Shown in pieces: positions 12,214 to 18,422 of a stretch of DNA of 38,016 nt (positions are counted from its first letter, which is position 1; every line of letters begins with the position of its first letter). The notes under the pieces were generated by a model that saw only the letters and a program-made list of their open reading frames with translations, did no database searches and had not been told where the DNA came from. The stretch is from Methylothermaceae bacterium (GTDB lineage Bacteria > Pseudomonadota > Gammaproteobacteria > Methylococcales > Methylothermaceae), in assembly GCA_026982635.1 (NCBI GenBank), contig JALSGR010000306.1, positions 1-38,016 of the forward strand, given 5' to 3'. A program made the translations under genes and the position numbers.

Positions 12214-12852
12214 ATGATCGGCGTTTACGGCGGCACCTTCGATCCGGTTCACTACGGCCATCTGCGCACCGCCCTGGAGGTCATGGAGAACCTGGCGCTG
12301 CGGGCGGTCCATTTCGTCCCCTGCCGGGTTCCCCCCCATCGCCGCCAACCCCATTTTTCCGCCCGCCAGCGATGCCGCTTTCTCCAGCTGGCGCTGGCGG
12401 ACACGCCTGGGTTCGTCCTCGATACCCGCGAACTGGAGCGTCCGGGGCCCTCCTTCATGGTGGACACCCTGGCTTCGCTGCGCCAGGAGATCGGCAGGGA
12501 GCCGCTTTGCCTGATTCTGGGCCTGGACGCCTTTCTGGGGTTGCCGGGCTGGCATCGCTGGCAGCGCCTGTTCGATCTGGCCCATATCGTGGTGATGGAC
12601 CGTCCCGGTTATCAGCCCGACTGGCCTCCTCCGCTGGTGGATTGGGTCGAACGGTTGGGGACGGCGGAAACGCAGGAATTGCAGCGGCTTCCGTCGGGCC
12701 GGATCCATTTCACCCGCGTGACCCGGCTGGAAATTTCCGCCACCCTGATCCGGCAGTGTTTGCGCCGGGGGCGGGATCCCCGCTATTTGTTGCCCGATCC
12801 CGTACTCGATTTGATCAAACGGTCCTATGCGACGGAGTCGAAACATGACTGA
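12214..12852 (+). CDS. nadD: Nicotinate-nucleotide adenylyltransferase
   Basis: A 212-residue nucleotidyltransferase making deamido-NAD from nicotinate mononucleotide and ATP. The N-terminal [13 protein letters not shown] holds the (H/T)xGH ATP-binding motif, and ISATLIR near the C-terminus is the ISxTxxR motif. PDPVLDLI at the end is also typical. It begins one base after the proA stop and overlaps the rsfS start by 8 nt. Confidence 0.96.
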
Positions 12853-13186
12853 ACGATTGCTCCAGTGGGTGCTCGATGCCCTCGACGACATGAAGGCCCG
12901 GGAAGTGACCGTGCTCGACGTGCGCGGCAAGACCAGCGTGACCGATTACATGGTGGTGGCTTCCGGCACTTCCGAACGCCACGTTCATGCCCTCGCCGAT
13001 CACGTGGTCGAGGCGGTGGCGGTGCATCGCATCAAGCCCCTCGGGGTCGAAGGCGAGCATTCCCGCGACTGGGTGCTGGTGGACCTGGGGGATGTCATCG
13101 TCCATGTGATGCTGCCGGAAACCCGCCAGTTCTACCAATTGGAAAAATTGTGGCAGGTGGAGGAGGAAGGCGGCCAAAGCGCCTGA
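12845..13186 (+). CDS. rsfS: Ribosomal silencing factor RsfS
   Basis: A 113-residue protein that binds bL14 on the 50S subunit and blocks subunit joining when nutrients are scarce. [43 protein letters not shown] and the end segment [10 protein letters not shown] match the family closely. ATG 12845 is chosen with GGAG (12834-12837) 7 nt upstream. rlmH, the usual next gene, is missing; instead a convergent soxZ-like gene ends 2 nt after the rsfS stop. Confidence 0.96.
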
Positions 13187-13188
13187 GC

Positions 13189-13479
13189 TTATGGCAGGAC
13201 GATCTCCAGGACGCCGCTGCGGCCCTGGTTGGTATGCCAGCGGATTTCCAGCCGGTCCCCGGGGCGGGTGCCGTCGATGCGCAGGGCGAAAAAAGGTTCC
13301 GCTGCGATGCCGGGGCCGAAGCCGGCTTCCAGGATCAGGGCGCCGTGGAGATGGAGGCTTAGACGATCCAGGTGGCGTTCGGGCCAGGTCTCCTCACCGG
13401 TCCAGATCTCGCTGGCCGGGAAAAACAGACGAAGCTCGACGCTGTCGTCGCGGTGCCGCTTGCTGCGGTATTCGATCAT
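13189..13479 (-). CDS. soxZ: SoxZ-like sulfur-carrier subunit
   Basis: A 96-residue all-beta protein. The C-terminal two thirds (LSLHLHGALILEAGFGPGIA, PFFALRIDG, GDRLEIRWHTNQG) follow the SoxZ pattern, in which the NPYF and W-x-D-x-x-G regions are recognisable in diverged form. SoxZ pairs with SoxY in the periplasm and presents the sulfur-carrying Cys arm to partner enzymes. It has no signal peptide, as expected when it is exported with a Tat-dependent SoxY. The ATG shares one base with the soxY stop (TGATG), indicating coupling. It is the last gene of thiD-thiE-soxY-soxZ. No soxAX, soxB or soxCD is visible in this window. Confidence 0.78.
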   Translation of the reverse strand: MIEYRSKRHRDDSVELRLFFPASEIWTGEETWPERHLDRLSLHLHGALILEAGFGPGIAAEPFFALRIDGTRPGDRLEIRWHTNQGRSGVLEIVLP

Positions 13480-13910
13480 CAGCTGCACCCTTCCGAGACG
13501 CTGATCTTGGCGCTTTGGCGGAAATAACGGCCGTCGGCGCGCACCACCGCGATCACCTCGCTGTCCTGCAGAATGCGCAGATGGGTGCGGATGGCGGGGC
13601 GCATGCGGGGAGACAGATTGAAGCGGGCTGCCAGGGGGTCGGGATGATCCCGGACGAGCAGCGCGATCATGTCCACCCGGCGAAGGCGACAGGCCACCCG
13701 GACCGGCACCGCCAGACGGGAGACCGCCCGCGACGGCATCCGCAGACCGACGCCCGGATGGTATTTGGGCAGGGTGCCGCCCGTCAATTCCTGAAGCGCT
13801 TGCCGCAGGCGGGCATCGTCCGGGTACCCCAAGCGGGGCCACAGAGGCAAGCCGCTGCACCAGGCCAGCAGACGCAAGAACCGTCTTCGCGGCGGGGAGA
13901 CCGGGCTCAT
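13479..13910 (-). CDS. soxY: SoxY-like sulfur-carrier protein with unusual C-terminus
   Basis: A 143-residue protein with a twin-arginine signal (RRRFLR, 8-13, then a hydrophobic run to about 24). The SoxY core includes DPLAARFNLSP (91-101) and VIAVVRADGRYF (119-130). In SoxY the sulfur-binding Cys sits in a terminal GGCGG arm; here the chain ends VSEGCS with Cys142 second from last. The carrier Cys is thus kept but most of the glycine arm is lost. The start ATG (13910) overlaps the thiE stop as ATGA. It could carry sulfur for thiosulfate or sulfide oxidation elsewhere in the genome, or serve another sulfur transfer; the altered tail leaves activity uncertain. Confidence 0.8.
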   Translation of the reverse strand: MSPVSPPRRRFLRLLAWCSGLPLWPRLGYPDDARLRQALQELTGGTLPKYHPGVGLRMPSRAVSRLAVPVRVACRLRRVDMIALLVRDHPDPLAARFNLSPRMRPAIRTHLRILQDSEVIAVVRADGRYFRQSAKISVSEGCS

Positions 13911-14542
13911 CTCCGTTTCGGTTCCGGGAACAGGCGGGCGAAACCGGCAGCGGCCCTTCGGAGGTCCGGTGCGTGGAACAGGGCGCTGATCGCCGCGATC
14001 AGATCGGCGCCGGCCTCGATCACTTCCGGGGCCCGCTCCAGGGTGATGCCGCCGATGGCGACGACCGGGCATCGCAGGGCCCGGCGCGCCTGCCGCAGCA
14101 GCGCCAGGGGAGCGGGGGCGGCTTCCGGTTTGCTGGGCGAGGGGAAGAAAGCGCCGAAGGCCACGTAGCTGGCGCCCGCCCGTGCGGCGGCATCGGCCCA
14201 CGCCAGGTCCCGGTAACAGGAGATGCCGATGATGGCCTCGGGGCCGAGGATCTTGCGGGCTTGGTGGATGTCGGTGTCGTCGCGTCCCAGATGAACGCCG
14301 TCGGCGCCGGCGCGACGGGCCAGATCGACGCGATCGTTGACGATCAAGGGGGTCTGGAAGTCGTGACACAGCGCCACCAGTTCCTCCACCTGAGCCAGGG
14401 ACAGGCGGCCGTGCTTGTCACGCAACTGGACGACCCGGGCGCCGCCGCTCAAGACGGTCCGTATCTGCCGTTTCAGCCGTTCGAAGTCTTCCGGATCGGG
14501 GGTGACGGCGTACAAGCCGCGACGGGGAAAGGGCAGGGTCAC
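13907..14542 (-). CDS. thiE: Thiamine-phosphate synthase
   Basis: A 211-residue TIM-barrel enzyme that joins hydroxymethylpyrimidine diphosphate and thiazole phosphate to thiamine phosphate. Motifs are GLYAVTPD at the N-terminus, GGARVVQLRDK, VNDRVDLARRAGADGVHLG and VAIGGIT. The start is GTG 14542, supported by a GGAG 6 nt upstream; there is no in-frame ATG near. It follows thiD by 2 nt and overlaps soxY by 4 nt. Confidence 0.93.
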   Translation of the reverse strand: MTLPFPRRGLYAVTPDPEDFERLKRQIRTVLSGGARVVQLRDKHGRLSLAQVEELVALCHDFQTPLIVNDRVDLARRAGADGVHLGRDDTDIHQARKILGPEAIIGISCYRDLAWADAAARAGASYVAFGAFFPSPSKPEAAPAPLALLRQARRALRCPVVAIGGITLERAPEVIEAGADLIAAISALFHAPDLRRAAAGFARLFPEPKRR

Positions 14543-14544
14543 GG

Positions 14545-15312
14545 TCAGCTCCAGAAGAATCGGTAGGGGATTTTCCTTCCCTTTCCGGGGCGAAAGGCAT
14601 ACTTGATCGCGTTCCAGGTGTATTGCTGGGCTTTGCGGACGGCTTCCTCGAGCTCGAGGCCGCGCGCCAGCAGTGCCGCCAGTGATGCCGCCAGGGTGCA
14701 GCCGGAGCCGTGGGCGCCACCGGGAAGCTTTTCCCAGGTGAAGGTTTTGTGGTGGTGTTTCCAGTACAGGGTGTTGTAGACCAGGGGCGTCGGTTCGTCG
14801 CCGCCGGTGATCAGAACCGCCTGGCAGCCCCGCGCCAGCAGCCAGTCGGCGCACTGATGGGGAAGTTCCTTGCCGCTCAGCCGCCGGGCTTCCTGAAGGT
14901 TGGGAGTGACGACGGTGGTCAGCGGCAGCAGCTCCTCGCACAAGACCTCGATCAGGCGTTCGTCCGCCAGCTCGGTTCCGCCGCCGGCGCGGAGGACCGG
15001 ATCGAGGATCACGGTTTCACAGGGATCGTCCCTGAGCAGGGCGCCCAGACGGCTGGCGATTTCCGCCGAGCCCAACAGGCCGATTTTGACAGCCTGGATG
15101 GGCATGTCGGACCGCAGCACCGCCCACTGCGCCGCCAGGATTTCGGGAGGCTGGGGATACAGTCTGTGGACGTTGCGGGTGTCCTGGCTGGTCAGGCAAG
15201 TGACCAGGGTACAGGGGTGGCACCCCTGACTCAAGATGGCTTCGATGTCGGCCTGGATACCGGCGCCGCCGGTCGGATCGTGGCCGGAAACGGCGAGTAC
15301 GATGGGTTTCAA
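14545..15312 (-). CDS. thiD: Hydroxymethylpyrimidine/phosphomethylpyrimidine kinase
   Basis: A ribokinase-fold enzyme that phosphorylates HMP to HMP-P and HMP-PP for thiamine synthesis. It begins IVLAVSGHDPTGGAGIQADI, has VKIGLLGS, VILDPVLRAGGG, VVTPNLQEA and the ATP-site GGAHGSGCTLAASLAALLA. There is no ATG at the start. TTG 15312 is proposed because it places the family N-terminus right and has a weak AGG upstream, giving 255 residues; TTG 15360 is an alternative. It is the first gene of thiD-thiE-soxY-soxZ and no TPP riboswitch fits in the 63 nt upstream of TTG 15312. Confidence 0.9.
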   Translation of the reverse strand: MKPIVLAVSGHDPTGGAGIQADIEAILSQGCHPCTLVTCLTSQDTRNVHRLYPQPPEILAAQWAVLRSDMPIQAVKIGLLGSAEIASRLGALLRDDPCETVILDPVLRAGGGTELADERLIEVLCEELLPLTTVVTPNLQEARRLSGKELPHQCADWLLARGCQAVLITGGDEPTPLVYNTLYWKHHHKTFTWEKLPGGAHGSGCTLAASLAALLARGLELEEAVRKAQQYTWNAIKYAFRPGKGRKIPYRFFWS

Positions 15313-15375: not shown

Positions 15376-15843
15376 ATGGATAGCGATTATAACAAGTTGA
15401 TCGAGGCGATCGCAGAGTTTTGCCGGACGGTGGAACGGTTCGAGTGTTATCGATGCCTGCCCTGGTTGAGAAAAATCGAAAGGTTGTTGCGAATCATCGA
15501 CGACGGCATGGCCCGGTTGGACGTGAAGACGGAGGCGGGTGTCTTCCCGTTGCCGGATCTGGATCGGCGCTTCGAGCTCTACCGCCGGTTGAAGGCGTTT
15601 CTGGGGGATTTGGACGGTTATCCCCTGGCCGGGGACCGGGTCGATGATCCGTTGGACTACTCCGGCAGTCTGGCCGACGACATCACCGATCTCTATTTCG
15701 AATTGCGCCGTGGCCTGAGGTTGTACGAGACGGAATCCACCGGTCTGCTGCCGGCGCTGAGCCTTTGGTATGCGGGGTATCGTCTGCATTGGCGGGATCA
15801 TCTTCTCGGCGCGCGAAGCCGGCTCCGGGAGCTGCAGCCCTGA
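15376..15843 (+). CDS. DUF5063-like small cytoplasmic protein
   Basis: A 155-residue, mostly helical acidic protein without signal peptide or TM segment. The layout (N-terminal NKLIEAIAEFCRTVE, central DDPLDYSGSLADDITDLYFELRRGL, C-terminal WRDHLLGARSRLREL) resembles DUF5063 proteins, whose function is not known to me. It is divergent from thiD and ends about 110 nt before the porin gene, separated by its own Fur-type promoter, so it is probably a single-gene unit. Confidence 0.75.
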   Translation: MDSDYNKLIEAIAEFCRTVERFECYRCLPWLRKIERLLRIIDDGMARLDVKTEAGVFPLPDLDRRFELYRRLKAFLGDLDGYPLAGDRVDDPLDYSGSLADDITDLYFELRRGLRLYETESTGLLPALSLWYAGYRLHWRDHLLGARSRLRELQP

Positions 15844-15954: not shown

Positions 15955-17331
15955 ATGCGAACTTTGATCCGGGCCGTATCGACCCTGAGTGTGGCTGCCT
16001 TGTCCATTGCCCCCGCTCTGGCGGAATCGACGATGCCGACCCCGGAGGAACTGTGGCGCATCGTGCAGCAGCAACAGAAGGAGATCGAGGCCCTCAAGGC
16101 CAAACTGGCGGAAAAGGAGAAGGTCGGCAAAACCGAGGCCAAGGCGGCACCCGAGGAAGTCGAGGAGTTGAGACGCGAAACCAGCATCCTGGCGCAGGAG
16201 CTGGAGAAGATGCGTACTCTGTTGGTGATTCCCGAGGAACCGGAATACAAATCCATGTACGGTCTGGGTCCGGCGGCCTCCAAGGTCTATCAGGTGGGCA
16301 AGGGGTTGTCCATCGGCGGCTACGGTGAAGGACGTTATCAGGTATTCACCGATGATCAGAACGGCAGGAAGGACAACGCCGACTATTTGCGATTCGTGCT
16401 CTATGTGGGTTACAAGTTCAACGACTGGATTCTGTTCAACAGCGAGCTGGAGTTCGAGCACGCCACGACGGGTCGGGGGGGATCGGTATCGGCGGAGTTC
16501 GCCGCCCTCGATTTCTTTCTCGATCCCCGGGCCAACGTCCGCGCCGGAATCGTGTTGATCCCGATGGGCTTCATCAACCCGATCCATGAACCGCCGTTCT
16601 TCTTCGGCAACCACCGTCCGGAGGTGGAGCAGCGGATCATTCCCACCACGTGGCGCGAATTGGGGGTCGGGTTGTTCGGGGAATTGTTCCCGGGTCTGAC
16701 CTATACTACATATGTGGTCAACGGTATGGACGCCACCGGGTTTTCCGCCACCGGTATCCGCGGCGGTCGTCAGAACGCCAGCAGGGCCAAAGCGGAAAAT
16801 CTGGCCTGGGTCGGCCGGGTGGATTATGCGGTGCCCTGGGTGCATGGGTTGCTCGTCGGCGGATCGGCCTATCTGGGCAACTCGGGGCAGGACGAGATCG
16901 GCAGCGCTGACGTCTTCACCCAGATCTACGAAGGTCATCTCGAATGGAAGTATCGGGGTTGGGAGGTGCGCGCCCTGGGCGCTTGGAGCCACATCGACGA
17001 CGCCGACAAGGTCAGTCGGGTGGTGGGTGAGACGGTGGGCCGCGAACAGTTCGGCTGGTACGCCGAGGCCGGTTACAACGTCTTGCCCTGGCTGCTGCCG
17101 GATTCCACTCAGTATCTGGCGCCCTTTTTCCGCTACGAGCGTTGGGACACCCAGGCCGAGGTGGCCGGCGGGTTCGAACAGAACGGCAACCTAGACCGGC
17201 GCTTGTGGCAGGTGGGGATTCACTACAAACCGATTCCCAACGTGGTCATCAAAGCCGACTATCGGAATTTCGATGCCGATCAGGGCGAGGTGGCCGACGA
17301 GCTCAACTTGGGGGTCGGCTTCATTTTCTGA
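15955..17331 (+). CDS. Outer-membrane porin with N-terminal coiled coil (phosphate-selective-porin-like)
   Basis: A 458-residue outer-membrane protein. A signal peptide ends near ALA-ES (cleavage about residue 23). A periplasmic coiled coil follows (about 30-90, rich in E/K/L), then a beta-barrel with alternating aromatic strands ending in F (GVGFIF), the usual C-terminal signal for barrel insertion. It resembles OprO/OprP-type porins in layout. AGGGAGG (15941-15947) is spaced 7 nt from ATG 15955. It is first in an operon with an FMN-binding protein and a four-TM protein, under a Fur-type palindrome, suggesting a role in iron-limited cells rather than phosphate uptake. The substrate is unknown. 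Confidence 0.82.
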   Translation: MRTLIRAVSTLSVAALSIAPALAESTMPTPEELWRIVQQQQKEIEALKAKLAEKEKVGKTEAKAAPEEVEELRRETSILAQELEKMRTLLVIPEEPEYKSMYGLGPAASKVYQVGKGLSIGGYGEGRYQVFTDDQNGRKDNADYLRFVLYVGYKFNDWILFNSELEFEHATTGRGGSVSAEFAALDFFLDPRANVRAGIVLIPMGFINPIHEPPFFFGNHRPEVEQRIIPTTWRELGVGLFGELFPGLTYTTYVVNGMDATGFSATGIRGGRQNASRAKAENLAWVGRVDYAVPWVHGLLVGGSAYLGNSGQDEIGSADVFTQIYEGHLEWKYRGWEVRALGAWSHIDDADKVSRVVGETVGREQFGWYAEAGYNVLPWLLPDSTQYLAPFFRYERWDTQAEVAGGFEQNGNLDRRLWQVGIHYKPIPNVVIKADYRNFDADQGEVADELNLGVGFIF

Positions 17332-17340
17332 GGGGTTGAT

Positions 17341-17904
17341 ATGCGTAGGTTCGTATCCCTTTGCGTTTGCGCGCTGCTGGCGGTCTTTTCGGCCGCCGGC
17401 GTCGCCAAGATCTATTACAGCAAGCAGGAGGCCATGGTGCTGGCGTTCGGTGAGGGGGCCAGTGTGGAAATGCGTCCCCTTTTCCTGACCGAGGATCAAC
17501 GGAAGACCATCGAGCGTCTTGGCCACGTGCGATTGGAATCGGCGCTGTACACTTTCTATGTCGGTAGACGCGATGGCGAGATCGTCGGTTATGCCGCCAT
17601 CGAGACCCATACGGTGCGCACCAAGCCGGAAACCTTGCTGATCGTCCTCACGCCGGACGGCAGGTTGAGGGACGTGGTGGTGCTGGCGTTTCACGAGCCG
17701 CCCGAGTACCAGCCGCCGGAACCCTGGTTTCGGCAGTTGTTGGAAAAGGACGTCGATACCTTGCGCGTGGGTGTGGTGGAAGGCGTCTCCGGGGCGACGC
17801 TCAGTGTCCGCGGGACGCTCGAAAGCGTCCGGAAGGTGTTGTCGATCTATCGGGTCGCCCTCGCCGGGGAAAGGCCGGTGACCGTTGCCGCGGGGGGGGA
17901 ATGA
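17341..17904 (+). CDS. Exported FMN-binding domain protein
   Basis: A 187-residue protein with an N-terminal signal or anchor (about 3-22) and a C-terminal FMN_bind domain. The motif SGAT (150-153, in GVVEGVSGATLS) is the site where ApbE-type transferases attach FMN to the Thr, here T153, as known for NqrC/RnfG. Such domains pass electrons in the periplasm. It starts 9 nt after the porin stop and overlaps the next gene as ATGA. Its place between a porin and a membrane protein suggests it relays electrons from the membrane to a periplasmic acceptor, possibly ferric iron; that is inference. Confidence 0.82.
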   Translation: MRRFVSLCVCALLAVFSAAGVAKIYYSKQEAMVLAFGEGASVEMRPLFLTEDQRKTIERLGHVRLESALYTFYVGRRDGEIVGYAAIETHTVRTKPETLLIVLTPDGRLRDVVVLAFHEPPEYQPPEPWFRQLLEKDVDTLRVGVVEGVSGATLSVRGTLESVRKVLSIYRVALAGERPVTVAAGGE

Positions 17905-18422
17905 TGCGGTTCTTCGTCACCGGCGAGCATCACCGCAAGGTGCTGCTCAACACCTGCATCCTGTTGTTCCTGGGGTATATCGTCCTGTTCGCCGTCAGCG
18001 CGGCGCTGATGTACTTTCACAACATGGATCTGAGCCCGGCGTCGGTGGTGGCCTACTATCTGGGGAACGAGGCAGAATTCCGCCCGCCCCGGTCCTATGA
18101 GAGCCTGCTGGAAGTCAGTCATTTTCATCTCTTCGCCCAGGGGATGCTGGCGATGACCCTGGTGCATCTGCTCCTCATGACCGAGTTGCCGGTGTGGTGG
18201 AAGGTCGCGTTGGGCGGGGTGAGTTTTTTCAGTGCGGTGGCCAACGAAGTCGCCGGTTGGCTGGTGCGTTTCGTGCATCCGGCCTTCGCCTGGATGAAGG
18301 TGGGAACCTTCCTGTCGTTGGAATTGTCTTTGGCGATGCTCGTTCTGTGTGTCGGGGCGTCTTTGATCGGCGGACGGAAAAAGTCCAGATCACGGCTTCG
18401 ATCCGCCAGATCCTCGGCATGA
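17901..18422 (+). CDS. Four-TM His-rich inner-membrane protein
   Basis: A 173-residue protein with four predicted helices (about 14-38, 72-93, 98-120, 131-157) and a basic C-terminal tail. His residues lie at 10, 11, 40, 74, 76, 89 and 126. H74/H76 and H89 fall on the same helix (SHFHLFAQG, LVHLL), a layout that could ligate haem. I do not recognise the family. The start overlaps the FMN-protein stop (ATGA), so it is the third member of the Fur-type operon. A quinol-oxidising or haem-bearing electron donor to the FMN protein is possible, not shown. Confidence 0.75.
   Translation: MMRFFVTGEHHRKVLLNTCILLFLGYIVLFAVSAALMYFHNMDLSPASVVAYYLGNEAEFRPPRSYESLLEVSHFHLFAQGMLAMTLVHLLLMTELPVWWKVALGGVSFFSAVANEVAGWLVRFVHPAFAWMKVGTFLSLELSLAMLVLCVGASLIGGRKKSRSRLRSARSSA

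Follow-up and report, generated by a model that had tools for sequence, protein, structure and literature searches.

Genes for the sulfur carrier SoxYZ are routinely taken as evidence of thiosulfate oxidation, and the twin-arginine signal of SoxY takes SoxZ to the periplasm. A recent methanotroph description infers thiosulfate oxidation from SoxB and SoxYZ (PMC12662621). The canonical carrier, represented by Paracoccus pantotrophus (2ox5/2oxg) and Thermus (4uwq) structures, shares with the pair described here a two-subunit fold, a Tat motif on SoxY, an arm cysteine and the adjacency of soxY and soxZ. The present pair differs in that the SoxY arm reads GC(S/D/R) rather than GGCGG, SoxZ lacks HPMETG, the scores of both subunits lie under the equivalog cut-offs, no SoxB or complete SoxA was found, and the genes are joined to a thiDE operon.

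Divergent SoxY proteins outside sox clusters have already been published for symbiotic sulfur oxidisers; they have altered arms and non-sox neighbourhoods and were proposed to be repurposed (Sudo et al., 2024; PMC11237559), as is proposed here. Unlike the thiDE-linked pair, they lie near DMSO/tetrathionate reductase and alcohol/methanol dehydrogenase genes and include several SoxYZ fusions, and the word 'thiamine' is absent from the main text of that paper. In the sHdr pathway of the methylotroph Hyphomicrobium denitrificans, periplasmic SoxYZ acts as a sulfane carrier, the role also suggested here, but its loading depends on SoxXA and SoxB, with SoxT1A as the importer of sulfur for sHdr (PMC11582611); no SoxB, complete SoxA, PF04143 or CCG protein was found here. 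The quinoprotein dehydrogenase-associated SoxYZ-like carrier (TIGR04557) is likewise a SoxY-SoxZ relative found in methylotrophs. It is, however, a single fused chain of ∼280 residues, whereas the present subunits come from two separate genes and score 43.3 bits against a cut-off of 140; such fusions are present in other Methylococcales families and were not found in this genus. SoxY_para_1 (TIGR04487) has an AACIE arm, in contrast to the SEGCS arm of the present SoxY, which scores 19 bits against a cut-off of 172. The open-access literature yielded no paper joining soxY with thiE and thiD, or one that treats SoxYZ together with thiamine and a thiE operon; an orphan carrier encoded in a thiDE operon has so far been seen in Methylococcales only.

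The window, a stretch of 38,016 nucleotides, comes from a methanotroph of the Methylothermaceae, a family of the Methylococcales, whose draft genome (G000) is 98% complete and encodes a single SoxY. Four genes follow one another on the minus strand. thiD (14545–15312, TTG start) encodes a 255-residue HMP/HMP-P kinase that matches PF08543 with 239.7 bits and falls ∼5 bits short of the TIGR00097 cut-off in the NCBIfam scan (199.7 against 204.95 bits). thiE (13907–14542, GTG start) encodes a 211-residue thiamine-phosphate synthase scoring 189.8 bits with TIGR00693, above the cut-off, and 200.3 bits with PF02581. ThiD and ThiE are ordinary family members by their Pfam and NCBIfam scores. soxY (13479–13910) encodes a Tat-type sulfur-carrier subunit of 143 residues, predicted to be exported, and soxZ (13189–13479) the second carrier subunit of 96 residues. 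A 2-nt gap separates thiD from thiE, thiE and soxY overlap by 4 nt (ATGA), and soxY and soxZ overlap by 1 nt (TGATG), exactly the chain read in the preliminary description. The unit comprises precisely these four genes, because a divergent DUF5063 gene (15376–15843, plus strand; PF16702, 54.7 bits) has its first codon 63 nt upstream of thiD, and the convergent rsfS (12827–13186, plus strand; PF02410, 120.9 bits) ends 2 nt from soxZ. thiD-thiE-soxY-soxZ is one tight minus-strand unit, translationally coupled to judge from the overlaps. Control by a riboswitch was considered and ruled out, since an Rfam search of the operon matched no TPP riboswitch and no other Rfam element. Sulfur-oxidation enzymes are absent among the Pfam-scanned genes of the window, in agreement with the earlier remark that no sox enzymes lie nearby. 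Further along the window, before thrS, lies a block of a porin-like 458-residue protein, an FMN-binding protein and a 173-residue membrane protein (15955–18422); two of the three are without a Pfam match, and the block is kept in several genomes of the genus.

SoxY and SoxZ score above the gathering thresholds of PF13501 (66.4 against 28.4 bits) and PF08770 (37.9 against 25 bits). With the NCBI equivalogs for the thiosulfate-pathway proteins (the TIGR04488/TIGR04490 pair), SoxY reaches 55.8 bits against a cut-off of 125 and SoxZ 41.2 against 76. Judged by profile scores, the two proteins are members of the SoxY and SoxZ families yet score far too low for the thiosulfate-pathway equivalogs. Their AlphaFold models have mean pLDDT values of 84 (SoxY) and 88 (SoxZ); in Foldseek comparisons the SoxY model best matches solved SoxY structures (2nnc/2ox5; E = 2e-9 for 2nnc_A) and the SoxZ model the SoxZ of the 2oxg SoxYZ complex (2oxg_C, E = 3.5e-5). 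The SoxY signal peptide carries the twin-arginine motif PRRRFL (residues 7–12; 13875–13892, minus strand), of which R8 and R9 do not vary within the alignment of the genus; the motif as a whole is mostly kept. At the other end of the protein the swinging arm is degenerate: the last codons specify G-C-S followed by the stop (13479–13490, minus strand), replacing GGCGG, as seen from the translation and the comparison of 49 genomes. The arm cysteine, Cys142, is invariant in the genus and present in all 49 SoxY-bearing Methylococcales genomes.

Across these 49 genomes the GGCGG arm is found in 12/12 that bear SoxA and in 3/37 that lack it, one of the latter three (G052) being cut by a contig end. 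The association comprises only 2–5 independent changes and is not significant once relatedness is corrected for; each supported pair either had both traits shifting the same way or showed no difference in the arm. The tie between arm decay and SoxA absence is thus suggestive. The HPMETG-type motif of SoxZ is lost in the seven soxYZ-bearing members of the genus and kept in every other readable SoxZ of the order. In close pairs, dN/dS is 0.27–0.29 for soxY and 0.26–0.35 for soxZ, with thiE at 0.35 and rsfS at 0.12; values are lower in G002/G006, a pair whose dS is near saturation. soxYZ are maintained by purifying selection, although not strongly.

The usual partners of SoxYZ were sought beyond the window. 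HMM searches found no SoxB and no full-length SoxA in G000, and neither a SoxB over the cut-off nor a full-length SoxA in the 14 genomes in which thiE adjoins soxYZ. True SoxB occurs in 9/61 genomes of the order and full SoxA in 12, none of them thiDE-linked. DsrE2 (PF13686) and SoxT/YeeE (PF04143) gave no match in any of the ten genus members searched; G003 and G009 among them are near-complete assemblies of 1–2 contigs. The CCG domain (PF02754, HdrB-type), which we take sHdrB to contain, gave none in G000, the one genome searched for it. These absences rest on a 98%-complete draft and are backed, for all but the CCG domain, by G003 and G009. A complete sox cluster elsewhere in G000 is ruled out by the single SoxY and the lack of SoxB and full SoxA, and a hand-off to DsrE2, SoxT or sHdr is ruled out for the genus (for the CCG protein, in G000) by the lack of matches. 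What G000 does contain is a cluster with the look of a SoxA/SoxB pair, made up of genes for a MauG-type di-haem cytochrome, a Tat phosphoesterase of calcineurin fold and a half-length cytochrome c resembling SoxA/TsdA (L070, contig C251, 4641–7500; also L072, 4150–6806, and L073, 6742–9515).

Within the genus, soxYZ are present in 7/10 genomes, with intact reading frames and the 1-nt soxY/soxZ overlap in all seven. G001 and G008 (L055, L056) have the same locus, with rsfS, thiE-thiD and DUF5063, from which soxYZ are precisely absent. Their absence from G004 (91% complete) is uninformative, as its main thiE is missing too. A search with the genus SoxY alignment returned two Methylothermaceae loci (MAGs, 87% and 47% SoxY identity) and three Methylophaga loci.

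The positions of SoxY and ThiE were compared across 61 Methylococcales genomes. thiE and soxYZ are adjacent in 14 of the 49 that bear SoxY, spread over four families. This genus contributes seven; the others are G017 and G023 (f2), G019 (f4), and G022, G047, G053 and G056 (f8). A contig end cuts thiE short in G006 and G007. What flanks the block varies by family, except that moeA, encoding a molybdenum insertase, follows soxZ in f2 and G056. In other f4 and f8 genomes soxYZ adjoin mtnP or other housekeeping genes. Outside the order, 143 gammaproteobacterial genomes, nearly all of different families, were searched, and none of the ∼70 with both proteins had ThiE within 5 kb of SoxY, on coordinates compared by eye and with a few cases possibly hidden by contig breaks; the SoxY neighbourhoods sampled there are mostly soxY-soxZ-soxA-like. 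As far as sampled, the thiE-soxYZ linkage is a trait of Methylococcales. The arrangement is more than chance, because the overlap recurs in seven genomes of the genus and the adjacency in 14 of the order while the flanks turn over; congeners and other families likewise rule out a fluke of a single draft. The linkage, whose conservation in relatives the preliminary description had proposed to check, is therefore not unique to this genome, which has no second soxYZ in a full sox cluster.

In the ThiE tree most sequences group by family, and both branches of the deepest split contain linked genomes, whereas the SoxY tree is poorly resolved. One ancient linkage followed by losses or moves fits the ThiE tree, the SoxY tree being too unresolved for proof. 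Horizontal transfer of the whole block was rejected, since the ThiE tree, unlike the poorly resolved SoxY tree, mostly tracks families. The order thiDE-soxYZ-moeA occurs in L049, L052 and L054, and soxYZ-(soxA)-moeA in L039 and L044; soxYZ-soxA-moeA is found in G016 and G026. moeA thus stands after soxYZ or soxYZ-soxA in several families (L054, 7532–8794; L052, 7698–8969; L039, 8144–9403; L044, 5695–6945).

These data lead us to favour, with confidence and doubt about equally balanced, an orphan, Tat-exported SoxYZ made from the thiD-thiE-soxY-soxZ operon and repurposed as a periplasmic sulfane carrier. This agrees with the first of two options raised earlier, an orphan carrier that follows thiDE, and the absence of SoxB, full SoxA and an HdrB-type CCG protein supports it. 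Judging from synteny, an ancestral methanotroph would have had a sox cluster (soxYZ-soxA-moeA) beside thiDE, from which the present soxYZ probably descend. Loss of SoxAX and SoxB may then have relaxed two features: the SoxY arm, GGCGG becoming GCx, and the HPMETG loop of SoxZ, the latter in this genus only. The Tat motif of SoxY would direct it to the periplasm with SoxZ carried along, and there the arm cysteine may still bind sulfane sulfur, a carrier function suggested by the cysteine and the modelled fold, with no partner gene identified. Because no SoxA or SoxB was found, the loading of the arm would have to be chemical instead of SoxAX-dependent, with sulfide, polysulfide or thiosulfate-level adducts as the exchange partners. 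In vitro, SoxYZ takes sulfane or polysulfide adducts by thiol exchange without SoxAX, and exchange with sulfide yields such adducts when a leaving group is already in place (PMC5336275). SoxYZ would serve as a sulfur buffer or as a donor to some further partner. thiDE would lend soxYZ a promoter and, going by the overlaps, translational coupling, and would not be served biochemically in return. Against an orphan carrier stands the dispensability of soxYZ in G001 and G008, and a block kept across families could indicate a link to thiamine instead.

The decayed motifs of both subunits, the two congeners from which soxYZ are precisely absent and the position of the genus on a long SoxY branch would also fit a fading relic, left from a lost thiosulfate pathway and drifting behind thiDE with little or no function. 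This is unlikely, given that dN/dS lies at 0.05–0.35, all seven genomes keep intact frames, the arm cysteine is present in 49/49 genomes, the Tat motif is mostly retained, the overlap architecture is retained, and the linkage goes back far enough to be shared between families. Thiosulfate might still be oxidised with substitute enzymes, for instance the products of the MauG-type cytochrome/Tat metallophosphoesterase/half-SoxA-like cytochrome cluster. The cytochrome matches PF21342 (SoxA-TsdA_cyt-c) with 65.6 bits (L070, L072), and its neighbour, predicted to be exported by its Tat signal, is a calcineurin-fold enzyme of the SoxB superfamily. The cluster, however, is also present in G001, which lacks soxYZ; the cytochrome is found in G008, again without soxYZ, and was missed in G009, which has them; and the SoxY arm has decayed, whereas relatives with SoxA and SoxB keep the motif. 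Substitution of this kind appears very unlikely.

The second option raised earlier, that the arrangement ties thiamine metabolism to sulfur supply, is not supported in the sense of sulfur delivery. Direct donation of sulfur by SoxYZ to thiazole formation has only the co-location with thiDE in its favour. SoxYZ is predicted to be exported, however, whereas the thiamine enzymes are cytoplasmic; ThiD and ThiE carry out no sulfur chemistry; ThiG was matched in 21/21 genomes searched and is canonical and intact in G000, therefore pointing to the usual sulfur route to thiazole; and G001 and G008 retain thiDE without soxYZ. On account of compartment, chemistry and the intact ThiG, direct supply is hardly credible. 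What stands of this option is a looser physiological or regulatory link, which is possible because the block is conserved while its surroundings are not, and it is conceivable that sulfur handling and the rebuilding of thiamine are expressed together. thiDE and soxYZ might be co-expressed when (per)sulfide or sulfite threatens thiamine: sulfite splits thiamine into halves, ThiD and ThiE would rebuild it, and SoxYZ would take up periplasmic reactive sulfur. Sulfite is known to degrade thiamine (PMC8362232). The conservation of the block in four families with changing flanks argues for such a link, as do two genomes of the sister family f4 with thiE behind genes for a persulfide-dioxygenase-like metallo-beta-lactamase-fold protein and a TauE sulfite exporter, and a third with thiE behind a YeeE-type pair (L112, L108 and L109 for all three). 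On the other hand, no riboswitch was found on the operon, thiE also lies by aceEF (f4) and elsewhere without sulfur genes, soxYZ adjoin mtnP in other genomes, and two congeners have dropped soxYZ. Moreover, cleavage by sulfite yields a sulfonated pyrimidine, which is not known to be a ThiD substrate. We regard this co-expression under sulfur stress as rather unlikely, and as distinctly unlikely the wider proposal of a methanotroph module that couples a sulfane carrier to thiamine rebuilding under sulfide or sulfite stress, with a SoxYZ partner unlike SoxAX, SoxB or SoxCD. Were the latter true, co-expression would keep thiamine-dependent metabolism running under such stress.

Most SoxY-bearing Methylococcales genomes lack SoxA and true SoxB and have changed SoxY arms, and therefore thiosulfate oxidation should not be deduced from SoxYZ alone. 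For the orphan carrier favoured here, the conserved thiDE-soxYZ block is a concrete and genetically tractable case in which the role of an orphan SoxYZ could be learned.

Several neighbourhoods seen during the survey deserve mention. In G001 the ThiG match (contig C25, 8903–9642) is split across two overlapping frames with stop codons, possibly by a frameshift or an assembly error; this is also one of the genomes without soxYZ. In the sister family, the thiE that follows the persulfide-dioxygenase-like and TauE exporter genes (L112, 2900–6945; L108, 3055–8516) is divergent from a PAS/sigma-54 regulator gene, and L108 additionally has two YeeE-type half transporters before thiE, with aceEF next. 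In other Methylococcales, orphan soxYZ lie by methylthioadenosine-phosphorylase-like and nagZ/hpt-like genes in L064 (6093–8097), L066 (5978–8093) and L063 (5736–7295), and the mtnP-like neighbourhood is possibly another sulfur-salvage context. In Methylophaga (L076, 6662–9720; L078, 950–4010), soxYZ follow an M48-type peptidase gene and are divergent from tusA- and dsrE2-like genes, after which come two-component regulators.
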